Assembly (NCBI GenBank): GCA_025655455.1
Contig: JAHXIV010000005.1
Location: 47,558 to 111,557, forward strand
Source: a gamma proteobacterium symbiont of Taylorina sp.
GTDB taxonomy: Bacteria > Pseudomonadota > Gammaproteobacteria > GRL18
Direction of reading: 5' to 3'
DNA: 64,000 nucleotides
Below are positions 23,963 through 35,512 of the stretch, one piece after another. Positions within the stretch are counted from its first letter, which is position 1. The number at the start of each line of letters is the position of its first letter. The position numbers and the translations under genes were made by a program. A model generated the notes under the pieces. It had not been told where the DNA came from. It saw only the letters and a list, made by a program, of their open reading frames with translations, and did not search any database.

Positions 23963-24880
23963 ATGGCATTTCAAGCATCAAATTTTGCTCTACTCGGTGG
24001 ATTCAGAAGCGGTACAACACTCCTGATTAATATATTAGGCCTTAGTGAACAAATAGTTCCCTGGTATGAGACCAAGGAGCTTTGTGAACTCTTTCGATGG
24101 ATTAGTATTATTAAGGGTGATAGTACAGAAAAATTTGAATCTGGTTTAATTAAACCTCCGGAAATTTCTGGTTTTAATTTAAATGCAGTCTATCAAAGAA
24201 TGAGTTTTCATATAGAATGGACTGAACAACGAATTAAGGGCATTCAAAAAGATCATAAAAAGAGTTATGAAAAATATCCTATAGGCAGTGATTGTATTGT
24301 TTATACTATTGATGAGTCAAGAGCATTGTTAGATGAGTGGCACCATACACTGCAAGCTTCCAAATCTATCCAGGATGATATTTTTTCAGCATCACGGCTT
24401 TTAATTTCTAAATTACTTGAACTGCAATTTCTTAACAAAATGAATGCTAATTTTTGTGTGAATAAAACACCGGAAATTACACGATTTAGCCATATTATTG
24501 CTGATTACACTCCTGTTAAATCAATTTTACTACTGCGTGACCCCAGATTTGTCGTCCAATCCGGAATAGATTTACAATGGGGGAGTATAGATAACTTATT
24601 TTTTATGTGGAAAAAATTAATTCAGCTGTCAAGACAGTCTGCAATGCATAATTGCGTTGATTATATGGAAGTAAGATTTGAAGATCTGATTACAATACCT
24701 CAATCTACTTTAGAGAGAATTTTTTCCTTTCTTGAGATTGATACAAATGCATATGAATTATTACAGAAATATCCTGTTAAACTAGACTGTGACAGATTGA
24801 ATAGTAAACTTTTAAACTCAAAGGTTTCTAAACGCATTGAACAACTGGATAAAGATTTTATTATACAAATGGGTTATTAA
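23963..24880 (+). CDS. sulfotransferase-family protein
   Basis: Sulfotransferases move sulfate from PAPS to sugars or other acceptors. The 305-residue protein has the 5'-phosphosulfate loop GGFRSGTTLLINILG at residues about 12-26 and the 3'-phosphate-binding region LLRDPRFVVQSGIDLQWG. It is followed by a sugar-modifying fusion protein and a giant glycosyltransferase, so a role in decorating a surface glycan is inferred. A PAPS-independent relative cannot be excluded. Confidence 0.75.
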   Translation: MAFQASNFALLGGFRSGTTLLINILGLSEQIVPWYETKELCELFRWISIIKGDSTEKFESGLIKPPEISGFNLNAVYQRMSFHIEWTEQRIKGIQKDHKKSYEKYPIGSDCIVYTIDESRALLDEWHHTLQASKSIQDDIFSASRLLISKLLELQFLNKMNANFCVNKTPEITRFSHIIADYTPVKSILLLRDPRFVVQSGIDLQWGSIDNLFFMWKKLIQLSRQSAMHNCVDYMEVRFEDLITIPQSTLERIFSFLEIDTNAYELLQKYPVKLDCDRLNSKLLNSKVSKRIEQLDKDFIIQMGY

Positions 24881-24945
24881 TCAAATTGTGCTAAAATTAT
24901 TATATAACTTCCTCTTTTTTTAAAATAAAAATTACCACTAATAAT

Positions 24946-27546
24946 ATGTTAAATGAAGCTCATTTTATTCCGTATAAAGAAGCATGTTTGCCCACAGGGT
25001 CTTCATTGGTTTTTGCCCCACATCCAGATGATGAAACATTTGGTATGGGAGGAACAATATTGCGATTAACAGGCAACAGGCAACTTGTTAATGTTGTTAT
25101 CCTCACTGATGGCGGATTAGGAGGAGACAAAAAGAGAAGAAACAAGGAAACTTTGGCTGCCATAAAGTTACTTGATGTTCAGGAGTGTTACTTTTTAAAA
25201 GCACCTGATCGAGGTTTAGAGGTTAATGTTGAATATAATAATAAAATTATTGATTTAATAGAGGAGTATCGTCCAGACAATATTTTTTTTACTTCTCCTC
25301 TGGAATATCATCCTGATCATAGAACAACTGCCTGGCTGGTTTGGAATGCTCTGCAAAGTATTAATTTCAAAGGCAATGCTTTTTCTTATGAAGTTGGAAA
25401 TCAGTCTCCTGCCAATACTCTGATGAATATTTCTTCTGTTATGAATAAAAAAATAGAAGTGATGAAATGTTATTCTACCCAATTATTAGAAAATGACTAT
25501 ATTGAAAAAATTAAGGCAATTAACTCTTCACGTACTTACACTTTATCCAAAGATATTCACTATGCAGAGGCATTTTTCCATTTTAATGACTTAAGCTCTG
25601 ACTTAATGAGTGGTTTTATTAATCAATATAGTCAATATCATATTGGTTTACAGTCTAACAAATTACCATTAGTTTCAATTTTAATTCGAACTAAAAACAG
25701 ACCTGAACTATTAAAAAATGCACTTGCATCCATTAAAAATCAAACTTACCAGAATTTTGAAGTCAATATAATAAATGACGGTGTCTGTAGTATTAAAAAT
25801 ATTGTTGATGAGTTTGAATTTAAGCGTGTCCACATCAAAAATCACAGACAATCTAAAGGGCGGGCTAAATCAGCAAATGCCTTATTAAAAATGTCTAATG
25901 GGGAATATTGTATCTTTTTAGATGATGATGACACCTTTGATTATGAACATATTGAAAACCTGATTAATATTTGTCGTGAAAATAAAAGTATACTTGTTTG
26001 TTATAGCAGTATTCGAGTAGGAAATAACCTTGAGGATACCCAGCCTTTTAATCAGCCATATAATGCTGCCCTATTAAGACATAGTAATTATATTCCTTTT
26101 CACGCGGTACTCTTTTCACGTAAATTAATAGAATTAGGTTGTAAGTTTGATAATTCATTTGAAATTTATGAGGACTGGGATTTCTGGCTTCAATTAGCTC
26201 AACATACTAATTTTTATCATCTGGATAAAATTTCTGCTACCTATAATATCAATGGAGATTCGGGAGCCAGTGGTGATTTAAATAAAAGAGATGATCAGGC
26301 TATATGTGTTAGCAGAATTTATGAAAAGTGGTCTAAGATCTGGAGTGGATCTCAACTGAGAGAAACATTTGAAATTCTTTCAAAGAATAGTACAGGACAT
26401 GAACATAACATTACAGCACAAGAGAATTTGTTACAACATGAAAGTAAAATTCCAGCTAATAATGATGAAGATGATATCTCTTTTAAAGAGCAGAATGATT
26501 ATCCTAAACATATTAATAATAAATCAGATAATAATATTGAGTTATTGTTTAATAAACAAATAGAAAATGCAGATATATATAGCACGACAGAACGCAGTTT
26601 TATTATTAGAAGTTGTCAACATTATGAAGCACAATGTATTGATCTATATAAAGAGGTATTTAAAGCTCCAATAACTCCTGAGTTTTGGAAATGGAAGTAT
26701 ATCAATGTACAGTGGCGTGGTATCTGTGCAATAAAAAAAGATAAAGTAATTGCACATTATAATGGTGTGCCGCGTGATATTTTATTATTTGGTGAAAGAA
26801 AAAAGGCAATACAAAGCTGTGACACGATGGTTTCTTCATTAGAAAGAGGTGGCTTTAAGAAAAATAGTCCTTTTTATAATATTGCAAAAATCTGGATCAT
26901 GGTCAATCTTGGTTTAAAAAAAGAGTTTTTATTATCTTATGGCTTTCCGAATAAAAATACTATGGCATTAGGGGAAAGTCTTGGCCTGTATGTTGAAGTT
27001 GATAAAATACTTCAGATAACATGGCAGGTAGTGGACATTGTTGAAGATAATCCATTCCTGGTAGAAGAATTAAATATTGATACTATCGATACTAATAGTA
27101 TTAATACTTTGTGGAATGACATGGCTGTAGATTTTAAAGATTCACTTTTAGTGATTCGAGATGCTGATTATTTGATTTCACGATATTTAGAACACCCCGC
27201 ATTTAAATACAAGCTGTACTCTATTAAAAATAACGATAACGATATGCTTGCTGTTTTTGTGTTAAAACAAAAAAATGATCAGCAGATGTTATTAGTTGAT
27301 ATAATTGCAAAAAAAGAAAATTTTAAGCTGGTTGTAAACAATGCCTGTTATCAAACAAAAAAGTCAGGATTTAATGTATTAAATTTCTGGGTGACAAGTT
27401 CAAAATTAGACTTATTTAAAGAGGCCAATGGTTTAATAAAAGATGTGGAAATCAGTATTCCAGGCAGTGCTATAACACAAGATGTTGATCCCGGCATAAT
27501 TAAAAACAAATGGCTTTTGATGTATGGAGATACAGATTTTATATAA
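24946..27546 (+). CDS. PIG-L deacetylase - GT2 glycosyltransferase - GNAT-like fusion
   Basis: Three enzyme domains occur in one 866-residue chain. Residues about 15-225 are a PIG-L/LmbE zinc deacetylase (FAPHPDDETFGMGG and YHPDHRTT). Residues about 240-480 are a GT2 glycosyltransferase (VSILIRTKNRPELLKNALASIKNQTY, with the nucleotide-sugar acidic motif FLDDDD). A polar linker rich in Asn and Asp follows. Residues about 555-866 resemble GNAT acyltransferases (FKAPITPEFWKWKY...GVPRDILLFGERKKAIQSCDTMV). The order suggests deacetylation, transfer and re-acylation of an amino sugar. No signal peptide was seen. Confidence 0.8.
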   Translation: MLNEAHFIPYKEACLPTGSSLVFAPHPDDETFGMGGTILRLTGNRQLVNVVILTDGGLGGDKKRRNKETLAAIKLLDVQECYFLKAPDRGLEVNVEYNNKIIDLIEEYRPDNIFFTSPLEYHPDHRTTAWLVWNALQSINFKGNAFSYEVGNQSPANTLMNISSVMNKKIEVMKCYSTQLLENDYIEKIKAINSSRTYTLSKDIHYAEAFFHFNDLSSDLMSGFINQYSQYHIGLQSNKLPLVSILIRTKNRPELLKNALASIKNQTYQNFEVNIINDGVCSIKNIVDEFEFKRVHIKNHRQSKGRAKSANALLKMSNGEYCIFLDDDDTFDYEHIENLINICRENKSILVCYSSIRVGNNLEDTQPFNQPYNAALLRHSNYIPFHAVLFSRKLIELGCKFDNSFEIYEDWDFWLQLAQHTNFYHLDKISATYNINGDSGASGDLNKRDDQAICVSRIYEKWSKIWSGSQLRETFEILSKNSTGHEHNITAQENLLQHESKIPANNDEDDISFKEQNDYPKHINNKSDNNIELLFNKQIENADIYSTTERSFIIRSCQHYEAQCIDLYKEVFKAPITPEFWKWKYINVQWRGICAIKKDKVIAHYNGVPRDILLFGERKKAIQSCDTMVSSLERGGFKKNSPFYNIAKIWIMVNLGLKKEFLLSYGFPNKNTMALGESLGLYVEVDKILQITWQVVDIVEDNPFLVEELNIDTIDTNSINTLWNDMAVDFKDSLLVIRDADYLISRYLEHPAFKYKLYSIKNNDNDMLAVFVLKQKNDQQMLLVDIIAKKENFKLVVNNACYQTKKSGFNVLNFWVTSSKLDLFKEANGLIKDVEISIPGSAITQDVDPGIIKNKWLLMYGDTDFI

Positions 27547-27576: not shown

Positions 27577-30500
27577 TCAGTTAATAATAGAGTTCCAGTT
27601 ATCAAGCTGATCTTCCAGCATCCAGTTTGATTGTACCCATTGCCTTAGTTTTTCACCTTCACTGATAGAGGTGTTTCTATCCTGTACAAGGGATTGAATT
27701 GCCCCGATCCATTCATCTTTTTTATTCTTAACCCGGATAACAGGAGCTCCTTTATAAGGGGTTATATCTGAGCAGACAACAGGATAACCTGAAATTCCAT
27801 ATTCTAATAGTTTAAGGTTACTCTTAGCATGGTTGAATGCATTATCACAGAGAGGAGCAATTGCTGCATCTAACGCTAAACTGGCCAGTTTATCCGGATA
27901 GTATTCAAAATCTACCATCGGATAATGTTCATGTAAGTAGGGGCGTATACTGTCCGGACAAGGTCCCAGAAAAATCCAGTCCACCTGGTCTTTCAGATTA
28001 CTAATAACAGATTTAATCATTTCTAAATCACCAAAATGTTGAGCTGCTCCAGCCCAGCCCACACGAGGTTTATCTGAATTTATTCTGGTAACTGCTCTAT
28101 TTTTCCAGCGTTCAGCAGAAATTGTATTGGGTATAATTACAATATCCTTATGATATTTTGAATATGCTTCAGCCAGAGGGGCTGTGGATACAACAAATCG
28201 ATCACAATAGCTGAGAGCAGTTTTTAGATGCTCTGATATATCCGGATGATTTGTTTTAGAATAAGGGTTGTAATCAGGTAATAAATCAATCAGATCATCA
28301 AGACTAAATATTTTATAACATTGACTAAAATCCCGGTAGTGTCGAAGTTTTGATAATTGTTTTAAGCTTAATGCATTATGCATAAATAATACATCAGTTC
28401 CAAGACGAGCGATTTCTGTAACAGATGGTGCATATTCAATTCTTTTAAATTTTTCAGTATGATAAATAGCTAATTCGCAAAGTCCTTTATTTTCAAGTGC
28501 TTTAAGAGGATCGATAGCACGGTAGTGTCCTCCACCCCATTGATCATGTGGAAATACAGTAATTTTCTTTGTGATACTTTTTTCTTTTTCAAAGGGTACT
28601 CTCACCCGGGTTTCAATTTTCCATGAATTTTGTAATGACAGATTTCTATTATAAGCACGATCACAGCTAAGTTGAGGTAACCATTGCTGAAACATTTCAT
28701 CGGTTTCTTTTTCAATAGAAGCTTGTTTTGTACCCTGTGTTTGCATTGTTACAATACTGCTGGTTCCATGAAGAATAAGAGCAGTATAGGGTGTAAATAC
28801 TATTTTATGATTTTTTGCCAAAACTTTCAGGCACAAATCCACATCAAAAAATAAAGAAGGAAACATCTCTTCATTAAGACCATCTACCTGATTATAGATT
28901 TCTTTGTGTATTAATAGACAATCTATTGATACTGCTGAAATATTTTTAGCCAGATGTCTATCATTAAAATAAATTGATTTTACAGAGGAATAAGTGTGAC
29001 AATTATCACCAGCAATACCATACTCACCCATGCCTAAGGTATAGCCATCATGTACAATGACCCTATTTTTATTGAGGAGTCTGCAAGCTGCAATAGCTAT
29101 CCCCGGCTGTTGCAAATAAGTCACTAGAATGTTTAACCAGTCAGGGGTGATAATCTCTATTTGATCATTTAAAAATAAAAGTTGCTCCCCTTTTGCAAAC
29201 TGTACTGCCCTGTTATAGAGTTGAGCGGCATTTTTTGCCTGATTACTTAATAACAAAGTAAAACCCAGTTCAGCTTTGAGTTTTTCTAAATTCTCTAGAC
29301 TATCACTAAAATTATCTATGATAATAAATTCATAATTTTTATAGGAGGTTAGATTGACAAAAGAAGATAAGCAGCGGGTTAATGAGTGAGTATTATTTCT
29401 AACAGCAATAATGATGGAGATCAGTGGTCTTTTATTTAATCCATAAATAATCTTATTACTGGTAAGAGAATTTATGTTGCTAATATTTGCTTTAATACCA
29501 AAATCCTGTAGATGATGTTTAACTACAGGCTTAATATCATATTGTAAACTTTGCTTGGCATTGATATCTAGTTGGTGAAATAAAATGGTATCAATATGGC
29601 CAATAGATTTTTCTCCGCACATTTTTAGCGTTAAAAAAGTCAGATTATAAGCAACTAAAGGCATTGCTTCAGAAAAGCCTCCTAATGAGATTAGATGCCT
29701 TTGTTTGATAAGAAATGCATTCCCTATGTAATTTTTTGCACGTAGTAATTCAAGATTAAAATCTGGTTTAAAATAGGGTGCATAATGCTTATGTTCAGTA
29801 GTTATCATATCCTGATCAAAATAAATTAATTCTCTACCAGGATTTTTTAAAAGGTGCTTTTGTAATAAGTCGGGTAAGCAGACAGAAAAGCTATCTCCGG
29901 ACTGAATGCAAGCAACCCAATGGGCATCAACCTTGTGAATCTCTTTATTAATTTCATGTGTCAGTGATTCTCCCTGCTTAATGGTTAAAAGCCTTGAGTT
30001 ATCAAATTTCCATTGATTATTTACCAATTCACTAAAACGGGTTACAAGAGTTAAGAAGCAGTTTTTATTTTCCCGTTGTTTCAAACTTAATATCGTCTGT
30101 TGAATATACGGTGCATTCTCGGGGTTTATAAGAATTATAAAGTGAATAACTAAATTTTTACCGGTCAGATTAATTTTAGACAATCTTTTTAGTTGTTCAT
30201 AATGTGATTGTTCTAAGCGCCATAAGTTATAACTCTTATTCCCCAATACGGAAAGATTAGACATATCAGGTAAGTTTAATAAATCTTTTATTATTGCAGT
30301 TGATGAGGGTATTTCAGGCTCAATTGTTTTTTCTTTTTTTCTAAAATGAAGAGTTTGTTTTTGATAGAGTTCATCATAATCAATAATATTATCTTTAATA
30401 GACTTTATTTGTTTCTGTAATAAATTATGACGCAATATTTTTAATAAATGTCTGTCATCTGCCAAACGTAACAATTGTTTTAATAAGGCATTGGCATTAT

Positions 30501-32469
30501 TGGGTGGAATTAAATAACCCGTCACACCATGATCTACACGCTCTGTTATTGCCCCGACACGAGAAGCTATAACCGGAATTCCTAATGCTTGAACCTCACT
30601 TAGAGTCAAACAGAATGTTTCATCATAAGTTGAAGGAATTAATGCGACATCAGTTGATTTCAGCAGGTGTGCTAATTGCTCATGTTGATAGAAACCGTGA
30701 ATGTTTACACCATATTTATTTAAATCTGCCTGATATTCATGAGATACACCACCTATTATGCTTAAATTTATCTTTTTATATTGTAATTTTTTTGCCAGTT
30801 TTACAATTGTCTCAGCACCCTTAGCCTGATTTAAATTACCTATACAGACTACTTCTAATATTGGTTTTTGCATCGAATACCGGACAGGTGCTTCCGGTAG
30901 TTTAATACCATGAGGGATTATCTGGATTTTTTCAGCAATACGTGGGTCAAATGCCTGAGCAAATTTATTACTAACAAACTCAGAAGGAGCTATCAGGCAA
31001 TCACTGGATTCTAAAACATTTGTGATTAATAATTGCCTTTGTTCTATATATTCACTAATGGATTGATTTGTGTTGGCATTAATATAAACCTGCTTTAAGG
31101 TTATGCAATCTATACACTCATTATCATTGGCTGAAATGCTCTTTTTTTGACAGCGATTTCCATTAGGCAAAAGCATATTGTAATCAGGGCACAATAAGTA
31201 ATAATCATGTAAAGAAATAATGACTTGCCTGCCTAATTTTTTCGCAATAAGCGGCAGTGCAAGAGTTCCCCATTTTGCAAGATGTTGAAAGTGAATAACT
31301 GGATATTGCCCACCTATTAAAAATCGTGTGAAGTTTTCTTCAACTAAATAATTGCGAATGGTCGCAGGCAGGTTATTGATATAATAATTACATTTTATAT
31401 TTTCTATCTGGTATGCAATATTTCGTATACTATTAGCAGTTGCCTTAGAATGCTTATCTTTATCTGATTCAGCCACACCAGTGTCAAAATTTTGATCAAC
31501 CATGTCCGCCCAAAGTGGATTTAAATCAGCAGGGTAAATAACACTCACATTAAATTTATTTTTGATTCCTTCTGCAATTTCATAACTATGAATTTCTGTT
31601 CCCCCGGCTTTTAGAGAGTTATGTAATACCATTAATAGTTGAGGATTATGGTCTGTTTGATGATTTAATCTTATCTTCTCCTGTACTGTTCTTAATGGAT
31701 TTAAATAACAAAACTCTTTTACAGCAGATAAATAACCGGGCCAGCGGAGATTCAGTAATTCTGCATTAATCCTTTTATTCTGGTCAGTGGAATCAATTGA
31801 GTCAAAAGAAGCCCCCCCCTGATGATAAATATAGAGGTTGTCACAACACACAATTTCAAATCCAGCCATCCAGGTACGCATTGAAAAATCACATTCTTCA
31901 GCATATCCAGGTGAAAACACTTCATCAAAATATCCAATAGACTTAAATATTTGTTTATGAACTAACATACAAAAACCAACGGCTGTTGGTATCCTGGGAT
32001 AGCTGGGAGTAATTAAATCCATTATTAAAGATATTTCCTGAGGTGTTTCAGCAAGTATTGGATTATTTTGATTAATTTGGGGAACAGATAAAATTGTGGC
32101 ATTATTTGATAATGGGCAGACAATACCAATAGATGAATCACTTTGCAGACAGGAAAGTAATTTTTCAATCCACAGAGGAGTGACTATAGTGTCACTATTC
32201 AGGATAAGAATATGCTCTTTACATTGACTAATAGCATAGTTAATGGAAGCAACAAAACCAATATTTTTGTTGTTTAGGATAGAGGTGATATTAAGGTTTG
32301 ATTCTTTGTACTGGTTTATAATATCAGGAATACGATTATCAGTACTTGCATCATCAATGAGAATAACACGATGTTGTTTAGAGGTATATTTTGCAACGCT
32401 GCTGATGCACTTTTCAAAACTTTCAAAACCATTGTAAACTGGAATAATTACATCTATCAATGCTGCCAT
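27577..32469 (-). CDS. giant multidomain glycosyltransferase (GT2/GT4/GT2/GT2/GT4-like)
   Basis: The 1630-residue protein holds about five glycosyltransferase-like modules. An N-terminal GT2 (VILIDDASTDN, ILILNSDT, rhamnosyl-transferase-like) comes first. Then a GT4 (VVCIGNLNQAKGAETIVKLAKKL; SLSEVQALGIPVIASRVGAITERVDHGVTGYLI, about 290-720), a divergent GT2 (about 775-1010), another GT2 (LISIIIAVRNNTHSLTRCL, about 1045-1320), and a C-terminal GT4-like module (DQWGGGHYRAIDPLKAL...YGISGYPVVCSDITPY). Such chains usually build surface polysaccharides or glycosylate surface proteins. It is convergent with the triple-fusion gene. Confidence 0.85.
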   Translation of the reverse strand: MAALIDVIIPVYNGFESFEKCISSVAKYTSKQHRVILIDDASTDNRIPDIINQYKESNLNITSILNNKNIGFVASINYAISQCKEHILILNSDTIVTPLWIEKLLSCLQSDSSIGIVCPLSNNATILSVPQINQNNPILAETPQEISLIMDLITPSYPRIPTAVGFCMLVHKQIFKSIGYFDEVFSPGYAEECDFSMRTWMAGFEIVCCDNLYIYHQGGASFDSIDSTDQNKRINAELLNLRWPGYLSAVKEFCYLNPLRTVQEKIRLNHQTDHNPQLLMVLHNSLKAGGTEIHSYEIAEGIKNKFNVSVIYPADLNPLWADMVDQNFDTGVAESDKDKHSKATANSIRNIAYQIENIKCNYYINNLPATIRNYLVEENFTRFLIGGQYPVIHFQHLAKWGTLALPLIAKKLGRQVIISLHDYYLLCPDYNMLLPNGNRCQKKSISANDNECIDCITLKQVYINANTNQSISEYIEQRQLLITNVLESSDCLIAPSEFVSNKFAQAFDPRIAEKIQIIPHGIKLPEAPVRYSMQKPILEVVCIGNLNQAKGAETIVKLAKKLQYKKINLSIIGGVSHEYQADLNKYGVNIHGFYQHEQLAHLLKSTDVALIPSTYDETFCLTLSEVQALGIPVIASRVGAITERVDHGVTGYLIPPNNANALLKQLLRLADDRHLLKILRHNLLQKQIKSIKDNIIDYDELYQKQTLHFRKKEKTIEPEIPSSTAIIKDLLNLPDMSNLSVLGNKSYNLWRLEQSHYEQLKRLSKINLTGKNLVIHFIILINPENAPYIQQTILSLKQRENKNCFLTLVTRFSELVNNQWKFDNSRLLTIKQGESLTHEINKEIHKVDAHWVACIQSGDSFSVCLPDLLQKHLLKNPGRELIYFDQDMITTEHKHYAPYFKPDFNLELLRAKNYIGNAFLIKQRHLISLGGFSEAMPLVAYNLTFLTLKMCGEKSIGHIDTILFHQLDINAKQSLQYDIKPVVKHHLQDFGIKANISNINSLTSNKIIYGLNKRPLISIIIAVRNNTHSLTRCLSSFVNLTSYKNYEFIIIDNFSDSLENLEKLKAELGFTLLLSNQAKNAAQLYNRAVQFAKGEQLLFLNDQIEIITPDWLNILVTYLQQPGIAIAACRLLNKNRVIVHDGYTLGMGEYGIAGDNCHTYSSVKSIYFNDRHLAKNISAVSIDCLLIHKEIYNQVDGLNEEMFPSLFFDVDLCLKVLAKNHKIVFTPYTALILHGTSSIVTMQTQGTKQASIEKETDEMFQQWLPQLSCDRAYNRNLSLQNSWKIETRVRVPFEKEKSITKKITVFPHDQWGGGHYRAIDPLKALENKGLCELAIYHTEKFKRIEYAPSVTEIARLGTDVLFMHNALSLKQLSKLRHYRDFSQCYKIFSLDDLIDLLPDYNPYSKTNHPDISEHLKTALSYCDRFVVSTAPLAEAYSKYHKDIVIIPNTISAERWKNRAVTRINSDKPRVGWAGAAQHFGDLEMIKSVISNLKDQVDWIFLGPCPDSIRPYLHEHYPMVDFEYYPDKLASLALDAAIAPLCDNAFNHAKSNLKLLEYGISGYPVVCSDITPYKGAPVIRVKNKKDEWIGAIQSLVQDRNTSISEGEKLRQWVQSNWMLEDQLDNWNSIIN

Positions 32470-32626
32470 ATTAATTACTCTTAAAATTATTTGACGAACT
32501 AGTATATTACATATGCCAACTGAGAAGTTATTTTTTTGCTTATCAATATCTTTACTAATTATAAGGATAATATTATAATTAAAGATCTGTGCTTATAAAA
32601 AATTGTTATTTAAGGTATCACTAAAT

Positions 32627-34204
32627 ATGGTTAATAAGAAAAAAGCTGCAGATGTGGCCGGAATAGTGTTGTTTAGTTTTTGTTCCGGTACATCTAGTGC
32701 AGGTGATTATATTGAAGAAGATCCTGAAATAAATAATGATTCATTTATATCTAAAATAACCCTGGCTCCTGAAGCTAGCATTCCCGGTCCCTCTTACAGC
32801 AGCACTCGATCAGTCTACCGTTCCGGTTCCAGTGGTGATGTTGGAGCTGGTTCCAGTGGCGATGCCGGTACTGATGAGCCGGATACTGCCACGACCTCAT
32901 CTTCAAGTGGTGATATTGGAGCTGGTTCCAGTGGTGATGCCGGTACTGATGAGCCGGATACTGCCACAACCTCATCTTCAAGTGGTGATATTGGAGCTGG
33001 TTCCAGTGGTGATGCCGGTTATGTTGAAATGATACTCAGCAGCAGTGTATCTGAAGGTGATGGTTCTACATTTGCAACAGTCAAACGCAGGGATTGCGAT
33101 AGTTCTTCCCCAGCTATTTCGGTTGATTACTTTACTTCTCCGGGTACCGCAACAGAAGGAGCTGATTTTTATCCTGAAAGCGGCACTTTAACTTGGGGAT
33201 CCAGTGGAGATTGCGGCAGTTATGGTTTTGAAGTCAATATTATTGATGACTCAATCTTTGAGCAACAAGAGACATTTAGTGTTTCACTGACTAATCCGAC
33301 AAATGGTTCTTATATTAATGGAGAGAAACTTGTCAGAGTTTCAATTCTGGATGATGATACTTATAAAGTAGAAAAAATAACCGGTGAAGTATTCTTATTA
33401 ACTTCTACTGATGCATCAATACCCAATACCACCAGCACCTTTGATATAGGTGCTATGTTTACTCTGAAAGATTCTAGCATTAGCATTAGACGTGAGGATG
33501 GTAACCTTAGTGATATTCAACCGAACACACTGACAGTTTTTAATCCATCTACAACTGACAATTCTATTGCTATTATTAAGGGTAAAGTGACCAGTACCGT
33601 GAGTTGTGTCAACACTAATAGCTACGATGTTCTGACAGCACTGGCAACAGTTTCTGTCTCAGAATCCTGCAGTCAGGCATTATCGCGAGTCAGCAATATA
33701 CCGGCAAAATTCACTACTGATTATTCACAAAATGGTTTAGATGGTACCTTAAAGGTTACTGTTATTAGCGGGTCTGTCGATATTATAGACAAAAATGGTA
33801 ATATTTCTTCATTAAGTGCAGGGGAAGAAAAGACTATTCAAGAGAGAGTACCGCGTACTTCATGGGTCTTACCAGTTGATAATGATAAAATGTATGGCGG
33901 TAAAGACAATTTCTTTACCTGGACAGAATATGCAGGTGCAGATCGTTATTTAATAGAAGTCAATCTCCCAAGCCCTGTGTTTTATGAAGAAAATCCCGCT
34001 AGTCCTGAATATCCTGAGCAAACGCTTGTTCTTACTTCTAAGTCTTATATTAACTATGATGGTTTAGTCATCTTTGTTGTTCCACTACCAAAAGGATATG
34101 AGGGTATTGTTTTAGAAGTGCGCGTCTATGCTTTGGATGCGGATGATAATATTATTGGAGAAAGTGTTTCCAGTGATAGACGTACAATTACCGTGAAAGA
34201 CTAA
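32627..34204 (+). CDS. secreted Calx-beta / FecR-like repeat protein
   Basis: From the ATG at 32627 (AAGG upstream) the 525-residue protein begins with a signal peptide ending SSAG. A low-complexity repeat region follows (GDIGAGSSGDAGTDEPDTATTSSSS units). Next is a Calx-beta domain (VSEGDGSTFATVKR...GTATEGADF...NIIDDSIFEQQETFSVSLTNPT), then a FecR-like region (VEKITGEVFLLT...FTLKDSSISIRR) and a C-terminal beta domain (FFTWTEYAGADRYLIEV). Calx-beta domains bind calcium in other proteins. A surface or secreted adhesive role fits the glycan neighbours, but this is inference. The TTG at 32603 in the track is less likely as the start. Confidence 0.75.
   Translation: MVNKKKAADVAGIVLFSFCSGTSSAGDYIEEDPEINNDSFISKITLAPEASIPGPSYSSTRSVYRSGSSGDVGAGSSGDAGTDEPDTATTSSSSGDIGAGSSGDAGTDEPDTATTSSSSGDIGAGSSGDAGYVEMILSSSVSEGDGSTFATVKRRDCDSSSPAISVDYFTSPGTATEGADFYPESGTLTWGSSGDCGSYGFEVNIIDDSIFEQQETFSVSLTNPTNGSYINGEKLVRVSILDDDTYKVEKITGEVFLLTSTDASIPNTTSTFDIGAMFTLKDSSISIRREDGNLSDIQPNTLTVFNPSTTDNSIAIIKGKVTSTVSCVNTNSYDVLTALATVSVSESCSQALSRVSNIPAKFTTDYSQNGLDGTLKVTVISGSVDIIDKNGNISSLSAGEEKTIQERVPRTSWVLPVDNDKMYGGKDNFFTWTEYAGADRYLIEVNLPSPVFYEENPASPEYPEQTLVLTSKSYINYDGLVIFVVPLPKGYEGIVLEVRVYALDADDNIIGESVSSDRRTITVKD
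32834..33019 (+). repeat. 2.5 copies of a 75-bp in-frame tandem repeat
   Basis: Units at 32834-32908 and 32909-32983 and a half unit at 32984-33019 encode GDxGAGSSGDAGTDEPDTATTSSSS. Units differ at only a few bases, so the array is recent and may vary in copy number between strains. Being 75 bp long, changes keep the reading frame. Confidence 0.88.
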
Positions 34205-34889: not shown

Positions 34890-34992
34890 TAATAAAGAGC
34901 CTTCAGCCAACATGAATTTGGCAGCCATCATTTGTAGTAACATAAAAATAGCTTTAAATCATTTATGTCAATTTTTTGTTACTCAAGAGTTT
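34890..34992 (+). repeat. dispersed structured repeat, copy 2 (divergent)
   Basis: This copy shares TAACATAAAAAT, CTTTAAATCATTTATGT and ATTTTTTGTTACTCAAGAGTT with the copy at 35410-35512. Its left hairpin part (CAGCCAACATGAATTTGGCAGCC) has diverged. It covers the gap between the membrane-protein gene and the bufferin-like gene. Nothing else is seen up to 35047. Confidence 0.65.
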
Positions 34993-35047
34993 ATAAAAAA
35001 CCAAAAAATGCCTGATATTTTTCGGTTTTATAAACAAGGGCTGTTTG

Positions 35048-35299
35048 TTATTTTTTAACTTTACCACCAGCTAATTTAGCGCAGGTACCTTCTGGAACAA
35101 ATACCCATTCTTCAGGATCGTTATCAACCTTTGCCATACCGGCACAGGCATGTTTCGCAGTACCACAATCATTCATACCCGTTTTTACTATACCCTGGCA
35201 TTTTTCAAAACCAGGTTTGCCCGCATGAGCAGATACACCTAAAATGGCAAGTGCCAGAGCAAATAAAGCAACGAAAGCTGTTTTTTTAAAGTTTTTCAT
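35048..35299 (-). CDS. bufA1: DUF2282 / BufA1-like bufferin precursor
   Basis: Starting at the ATG at 35299 (AGGAAA upstream) the 83-residue protein has a signal peptide ([27 protein letters not shown]). The family core follows: [49 protein letters not shown], with four conserved cysteines. BufA1 (DUF2282) proteins are precursors of bufferins, periplasmic copper-binding peptides normally modified by a BufB (DUF692)/BufC pair. No BufB or BufC gene is visible nearby. The track start at 35374 extends into repeat DNA and is rejected. Confidence 0.82.
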
Positions 35300-35324
35300 T
35301 TTATTTCCTGTCTTTTGTTTTATA

Positions 35325-35414
35325 TTAAGAGTGCCCACAGCCAAAAAATTGGCACGAATTATTTTAAATAACATAAAAATGACTTAAAATAATTTTGTGA
35401 ACACTTTTTGTTAC
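35325..35414 (+). repeat. dispersed structured repeat, copy 3
   Basis: GTGCCCACAGCCAAAAAATTGGCACGAAT...TAACATAAAAATGACTTAAAATAATTTTGTG...TTTTTGTTAC repeats the next copy with scattered changes. It ends in the GTTAC that begins copy 4, so the two copies are in direct tandem. It lies just upstream of the bufferin-like gene. Confidence 0.75.
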
Positions 35415-35512
35415 TTAGAAGTGCACACAGCCAAAAAAATTGGCTCGAATGATTTAAGTAACATAAAAATGACTTAAAATCATTTGTGCTGATTTTTTGT
35501 TACTCAAGAGTT
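35410..35512 (+). repeat. dispersed structured repeat, copy 4 (best preserved)
   Basis: This 103-bp unit has a GCCAA(AAAAA)TTGGC hairpin and the palindrome GTAACATAAAAATGA...TGATTTTTTGTTAC. An alternative pairing of ATGATTTAAGT with ACTTAAAATCAT is mutually exclusive with it. It matches copy 1 (reverse strand) almost exactly. It lies between the bufferin-like gene and ung; nothing else is seen in that gap. Confidence 0.8.

Follow-up and report, generated by a model that had tools for sequence, protein, structure and literature searches.

Locus and gene organization

We analysed a 64,000-nucleotide stretch of DNA, hereafter the window, from a gamma proteobacterium symbiont of Taylorina sp. (GCA_025655455.1, contig JAHXIV010000005.1, positions 47,558 to 111,557). 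An open reading frame at 24946..27546 (+) runs from ATG to stop over 866 codons with no internal stops, is the sole long ORF there and encodes, from N to C terminus, a PIG-L domain, a GT2 glycosyltransferase domain and an acyltransferase domain. A previous reading of the DNA from sequence alone had described a single 866-residue chain with all three domains; our analysis confirmed this, with catalytic motifs present, as well as its placement of the gene between a sulfotransferase gene and a giant glycosyltransferase gene, though the latter lies on the opposite strand. The sulfotransferase-family gene (23963..24880, +; PF13469, E=1.2e-11) ends 65 bp upstream of the fusion gene, while the 1,630-aa multi-glycosyltransferase protein (27577..32469, −; PF00535 4.2e-36, PF13692 1.9e-27, PF13712 5.2e-8) is encoded convergently with it. 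No wzm or wzt gene was found beside the fusion gene at the window locus, and a promoter scan returned a count not above that in shuffled sequence. G+C content was about 31% over window positions 24000-27000, covering the sulfotransferase and fusion genes, versus 38-42% for nearby aconitase and citrate synthase genes, a composition consistent with acquired DNA. Elsewhere, the window contains a 533-aa ORF (32603-34204) with a Calx-beta domain and a weak FecR match, in which three 75-nt tandem repeats occur (32827-33051), and a stretch devoid of long ORFs (34894-35511) made of imperfectly repeated AT-rich units of 71 and 29 nt.

Deacetylase and glycosyltransferase domains

The N-terminal part (about residues 20-220; 25003..25605, +) is a predicted PIG-L (LmbE-like) de-N-acetylase, based on its Pfam score (PF02585 at residues 21-135, E=1.3e-27, 97.2 bits versus a cut-off of 28.2), zinc motifs, fold and PDB sequence matches to diacetylchitobiose deacetylase (5.9e-16) and BshB (1.4e-13). 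Across 11 homologues, P25, H26, D28, D29 and E30 were invariant in the PHPDDE motif that supplies zinc ligands and the catalytic base (residues 25-30; 25018..25035, +), as were H122, D124 and H125 in the HPDH motif that supplies a further zinc ligand (residues 122-125; 25309..25320, +); the zinc site proposed earlier is thus borne out, with HPDD and HPDH both intact. Fold and zinc motifs are shared with BshB/MshB and diacetylchitobiose deacetylases, but the score against the bacillithiol deacetylase BshB1 equivalog model (TIGR04001) was only 89.6 bits versus a cut-off of 182.5, so the domain is not a bacillithiol enzyme.

The middle part (about residues 241-470; 25666..26355, +) belongs to GT2, as judged by its Pfam score (PF00535 at residues 244-368, E=1e-22, 81.3 bits versus a cut-off of 23.3), GT-A fold and DXD motif. 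Its best PDB matches were 9jma (7.8e-19) and chondroitin synthase (6.8e-15), making it akin to GT-A domains of the AvpGT/PglI type and of chondroitin synthase. The DDD region noticed in the sequence-only reading corresponds to an intact DDDD metal/nucleotide-sugar motif (residues 326-329; 25921..25932, +) with D326 and D329 invariant. An equally intact EDWD motif (residues 409-412; 26170..26181, +), in which W411 and D412 are invariant and E409 is at least 90% conserved, presumably provides the catalytic base of an inverting GT-A enzyme. A polar linker (about residues 480-550; 26383..26595, +) with model pLDDT <50 and no family match joins this domain to the third.

A predicted tandem-GNAT acyltransferase with a fixed C-terminus

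Of the three domain families expected from the sequence-only reading, PIG-L and GT2 exceeded their Pfam cut-offs, whereas Acetyltransf_9 (PF13527; residues 561-635, E=0.0039) reached 17.6 bits against a cut-off of 25, and the third domain is therefore unproven by Pfam on the fusion protein alone. Its homologues did exceed that cut-off (2.6e-11, 1e-8, 2.2e-7 and 1.3e-9), and profile A1 matched the region with E=1e-125 over positions 2-316. As a PDB search by sequence alone yielded just AAC(2')-Ic (E=0.0025), we turned to a fold search. The full-length model was unreliable over the third domain, which was covered by only two alignment rows, so residues 551-866 (26596..27543, +) were modelled separately with AlphaFold (pLDDT 88.7, pTM 0.88). 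Foldseek matched this model to 3n7z (E=5.9e-14), 2hv2 (TMq 0.68) and N-myristoyltransferases (NMTs; E about 3e-13). The C-terminal third is accordingly modelled as a tandem GNAT fold of about 316 aa, in agreement with the acyltransferase fold anticipated for it. In an alignment of twelve homologues, R634 and G635 were at least 90% conserved within residues 629-642 (…ERGGFKKNSPF; 26830..26871, +), a stretch likely to form the pyrophosphate loop for acyl-CoA in the first GNAT half. While Eis-like acetyltransferases and NMT are the best structural matches, identity to them is 10-13% and the acceptor here is presumably a sugar. Membership in Eis itself was rejected: Eis combines two GNAT domains with a C-terminal SCP-like domain, but the model has two GNAT halves and no third domain.

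The low Pfam score could also be expected if the gene were a chimeric assembly or frameshift artefact, or if its C-terminal tail were degenerate and without function. We regard this as very improbable given the high-confidence fold, the conserved motifs and C-terminus, and an independent full-length homologue of 861 aa (44% identity, same domain order; see below), which rules out an assembly chimera.

The protein ends in GDTDFI (27526..27543, +), and in 21/21 non-redundant close relatives of the acyltransferase the stop falls exactly one residue past GD[TSM]D[FLY]. The acyltransferase was always the C-terminal domain among these relatives, and its end was fixed regardless of whether it was preceded by nothing, a methyltransferase, other N-terminal parts or PIG-L-GT2. 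Several distant members also carry an acidic D-x-D near the end, followed by one or two residues. An identical stop position in all 21 relatives implies a functional free C-terminus. In NMT the C-terminal carboxylate acts as general base (PMC4964394), and by analogy the C-terminus of the acyltransferase probably has an NMT-like catalytic role.

Rarity of the fusion and recurrence of its parts

A scan of GTDB genomes seeded with the whole fusion protein returned 76 loci, only one of which contained the complete PIG-L/GT2/GNAT order: the 861-aa protein of Acidithiobacillus montserratensis (L028). A Sulfurovum MAG (L030) probably has the same architecture, incomplete at the contig end: its contig starts inside GT2 and runs on, past a frame change between GT2 and the next domain, into the same acyltransferase; adjoining this gene is a glucuronyl C5-epimerase-like gene (L030:1413-2951, −). 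Since the scan was built on short peptide patterns of limited sensitivity, rarity is an estimate. The full fusion was found in 0 of 56 relatives and same-class genomes (15 of the same genus, 8 of the same family); in two of the 56 (G010 and G016) its components are encoded separately. We found no description of a PIG-L/GT/GNAT fusion in the open-access literature. With one complete homologue found and another cut short by a contig end, the architecture is not widespread, in line with the earlier doubt that this domain order is common, although relatives that fuse only PIG-L and GT2 are not unusual. Fused forms made up a single clade in the acyltransferase tree (90/88 and 94/81) as well as in the PIG-L-GT2 tree (100/98), which gives moderate support to a single origin; the acyltransferase tree was otherwise poorly resolved. 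Overall, the fusion is real and rare, and its spread is apparently horizontal and scattered. A search of the symbiont's own genome for AMO/PMO, as a sign of methanotroph origin, gave no match, but was run without a control and nothing is concluded from it.

Outside the fusion, the acyltransferase is encoded by a stand-alone gene or makes up the C-terminal part of a different protein. Its gene adjoins a PIG-L(-GT) gene at eight loci (L032, L034, L035, L083, L099, L110, L135 and L138) and lies one to a few genes from PIG-L at two others (L101 and L134). The recurrent order is often wzt, of an O-polysaccharide ABC exporter, followed by acyltransferase and PIG-L-GT2. A Wzt_C-type ABC ATPase gene was located directly 5' of the acyltransferase gene in L032, L083, L099, L101 and L113 and a Wzt-type ATPase gene a few genes away in L134, L135 and L138, with L034 having an ABC ATPase without a Wzt_C match directly 5'. 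PIG-L was fused to GT4 in L083 and L135, indicating that the pairing of deacetylase and glycosyltransferase recurs with a second GT family. Some acyltransferases had a SAM-methyltransferase fused N-terminally (L032, L120 and L006) or an N-terminal part resembling a degenerate or shortened methyltransferase (L012, L083 and L035, with no Pfam match in L012 and L035). The symbiont's own genome also has an unfused set clustered in about 25 kb of contig 5, comprising a PIG-L-GT2 paralogue (612 aa; L105:2052-3890, +), a methyltransferase-GNAT paralogue (582 aa; L105:12833-14581, −) and wzt (L153:12533-13783, −). A 42-kb Methyloprofundus plasmid (AP023241.1; L138) carries wzm, wzt, radical SAM, acyltransferase and PIG-L-GT2-WbsX-RgpF genes, forming a mobile surface-glycan cassette that is mostly annotated as hypothetical.

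Because the loci with separate genes had partly been picked by the whole protein, we drew a second sample picked by each half alone. Across 368 other gammaproteobacterial genomes, the acyltransferase (E <1e-70) was present in 8, the PIG-L/GT2 family (E <1e-60) in 6 and both in 5 (Fisher 6e-9, uncorrected for phylogeny). When PIG-L/GT2 was counted as a single span of both domains, 3/3 were shared with the acyltransferase (7e-6). The two halves thus co-occur far above chance in these genomes. Among the 8 non-self genomes with the acyltransferase, 3 had no PIG-L closer than about 10 kb, whereas in 2 the region ended at a contig edge; the former show that the acyltransferase can have other partners.

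Proposed function and alternative explanations

Our preferred reading, to which we assign a probability of about 0.6, is that the fusion is a trifunctional and probably cytoplasmic glycan-assembly enzyme that performs HexNAc transfer, de-N-acetylation and re-acylation. The GT2 domain would extend a surface polysaccharide under construction, probably lipid-linked, with an N-acetylated amino sugar, after which the zinc-dependent PIG-L domain would remove the N-acetyl group of the transferred sugar and the C-terminal tandem GNAT would place a different acyl group from acyl-CoA on the freed amine, probably using, like NMT, its own free C-terminal carboxylate within the active site. The fusion would stand in for what in most relatives is a cassette of separate adjacent genes, often beside a Wzm/Wzt exporter. 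Coupling of the three activities is backed by the comparative genomics, and the predicted function is well constrained. The sequence-only suggestion that a single enzyme could transfer an amino sugar and swap its N-acyl group is thus supported. We infer the sugar, the acyl donor, the reaction order and the role of the C-terminus, and likewise that the three domains act sequentially on one sugar; the PIG-L and GNAT domains may act on a residue other than the one added by the GT. Points against the preferred reading are that the nearest solved GT relatives use different sugars, that the acyltransferase lacks a nearby PIG-L in three of the 8 non-self genomes, and that wzm and wzt are absent beside the window copy.

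The gene neighbourhoods also bear on an unlikely but plausible alternative in which the domains act on the non-reducing terminal residue alone, building or modifying it, and an N-acyl cap (in relatives also a methyl cap) halts polymerization and is read by the carbohydrate-binding domain of Wzt, as for WbdD in O8/O9a. WbdD offers a precedent for a terminal modification recognized by a Wzt domain (PMC3482155), and such capping would fit both the loci where wzt immediately precedes the acyltransferase gene and the three SAM-methyltransferase fusions. The window copy, however, has neither adjacent wzm/wzt nor a methyltransferase part, and gene adjacency is silent on which residue gets modified. 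Somewhat less probable still is that the domains are fused for expression or scaffolding only, with the GNAT acylating a separate hydroxyl or amine rather than the one freed by PIG-L: GNAT homologues with no nearby PIG-L (G055, G199 and G346 regions) are compatible with this, but the strong co-occurrence of exactly these families in sampled genomes and the recurring separate-gene order of acyltransferase and then PIG-L-GT2 argue against it.

The adjacent sulfotransferase gene raises the prospect of heparan-sulfate-like N-deacetylation and N-sulfation, where PIG-L frees an amine that the sulfotransferase sulfates and the GNAT has a different role (O-acylation or partial re-N-acylation). Such chemistry would fit the epimerase-like gene beside the Sulfurovum copy and a sulfotransferase-like gene 2.8 kb from the Acidithiobacillus fusion, the latter a weak match (PF13469 7e-5, below cut-off). 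But while the pairing recalls heparan N-deacetylase/N-sulfotransferase, it is inconsistent across loci: the window and Acidithiobacillus proteins have no detectable similarity, which speaks against a sulfotransferase common to both fused loci, and most PIG-L-GT2/GNAT loci have no clear sulfotransferase. As the fused and conserved partner is the GNAT and not a sulfotransferase, we consider this explanation improbable.

Relation to known systems

The sequential chemistry of the preferred reading has the same reaction logic as the teicoplanin/A40926 relay, in which GlcNAc transfer (GtfB/Tei10) is followed by deacetylation by Tei2/Dbv21 and acylation by Tei11/Dbv8 (PMC8987122). These are separate proteins, however, with a GT1 rather than a GT2 enzyme and an antibiotic aglycone rather than a surface glycan as acceptor, and the likeness drawn here is one of reaction logic. 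Like the fusion enzyme as proposed here, WbdD and other multi-module enzymes of ABC-dependent O-polysaccharide synthesis are multi-domain, cytoplasmic and linked to Wzm/Wzt, but WbdD has kinase and methyltransferase modules instead of a deacetylase and an acyltransferase.

Another related setting is the Pseudomonas LPS-core locus, where the PIG-L gene dnpA (PA5002) adjoins the Mig-14-like GNAT gene PA5003 (PMC8005017, PMC9866376), so that, together with WaaG, members of the PIG-L and GNAT superfamilies are neighbours in a surface-glycan locus, though as separate genes. GalN(L-Ala) in the Pseudomonas core has been speculated to arise through deacetylation of GalNAc by DnpA, followed by addition of alanine by an unnamed enzyme (PMC10579960). 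Homology of our acyltransferase to Mig-14/PA5003 (PF07395/PF13480) was not detectable, with no Pfam match and an hhalign probability of 0.6 to one Mig-14 sequence; as Mig-14 has no detectable sequence kinship to the acyltransferase, the Pseudomonas parallel is an analogy.

Finding a GT, a PIG-L deacetylase and a GNAT in one chain is good evidence for their cooperation on a surface glycan. It also supplies a model of N-acyl exchange that can be tested on a single protein, for a step proposed in the case of GalN(L-Ala) of the Pseudomonas LPS core (PMC10579960). In addition, the acyltransferases emerge as a coherent but poorly annotated family with links to polysaccharide export by ABC transporters. 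A broader claim falls a little short of even odds: that one polypeptide transfers, deacetylates and re-acylates HexNAc; that its GNAT represents a family of tandem-GNAT sugar acyltransferases needing a free C-terminus and recurrently partnering ABC-exported polysaccharide assembly; and that, by analogy, a GNAT is the missing GalN(L-Ala) acyltransferase of the Pseudomonas LPS core. One further locus from our scans (L147:101-2394) has the Pseudomonas LPS-core arrangement itself, with a Mig-14-like GNAT gene followed directly by a DnpA-like PIG-L gene.
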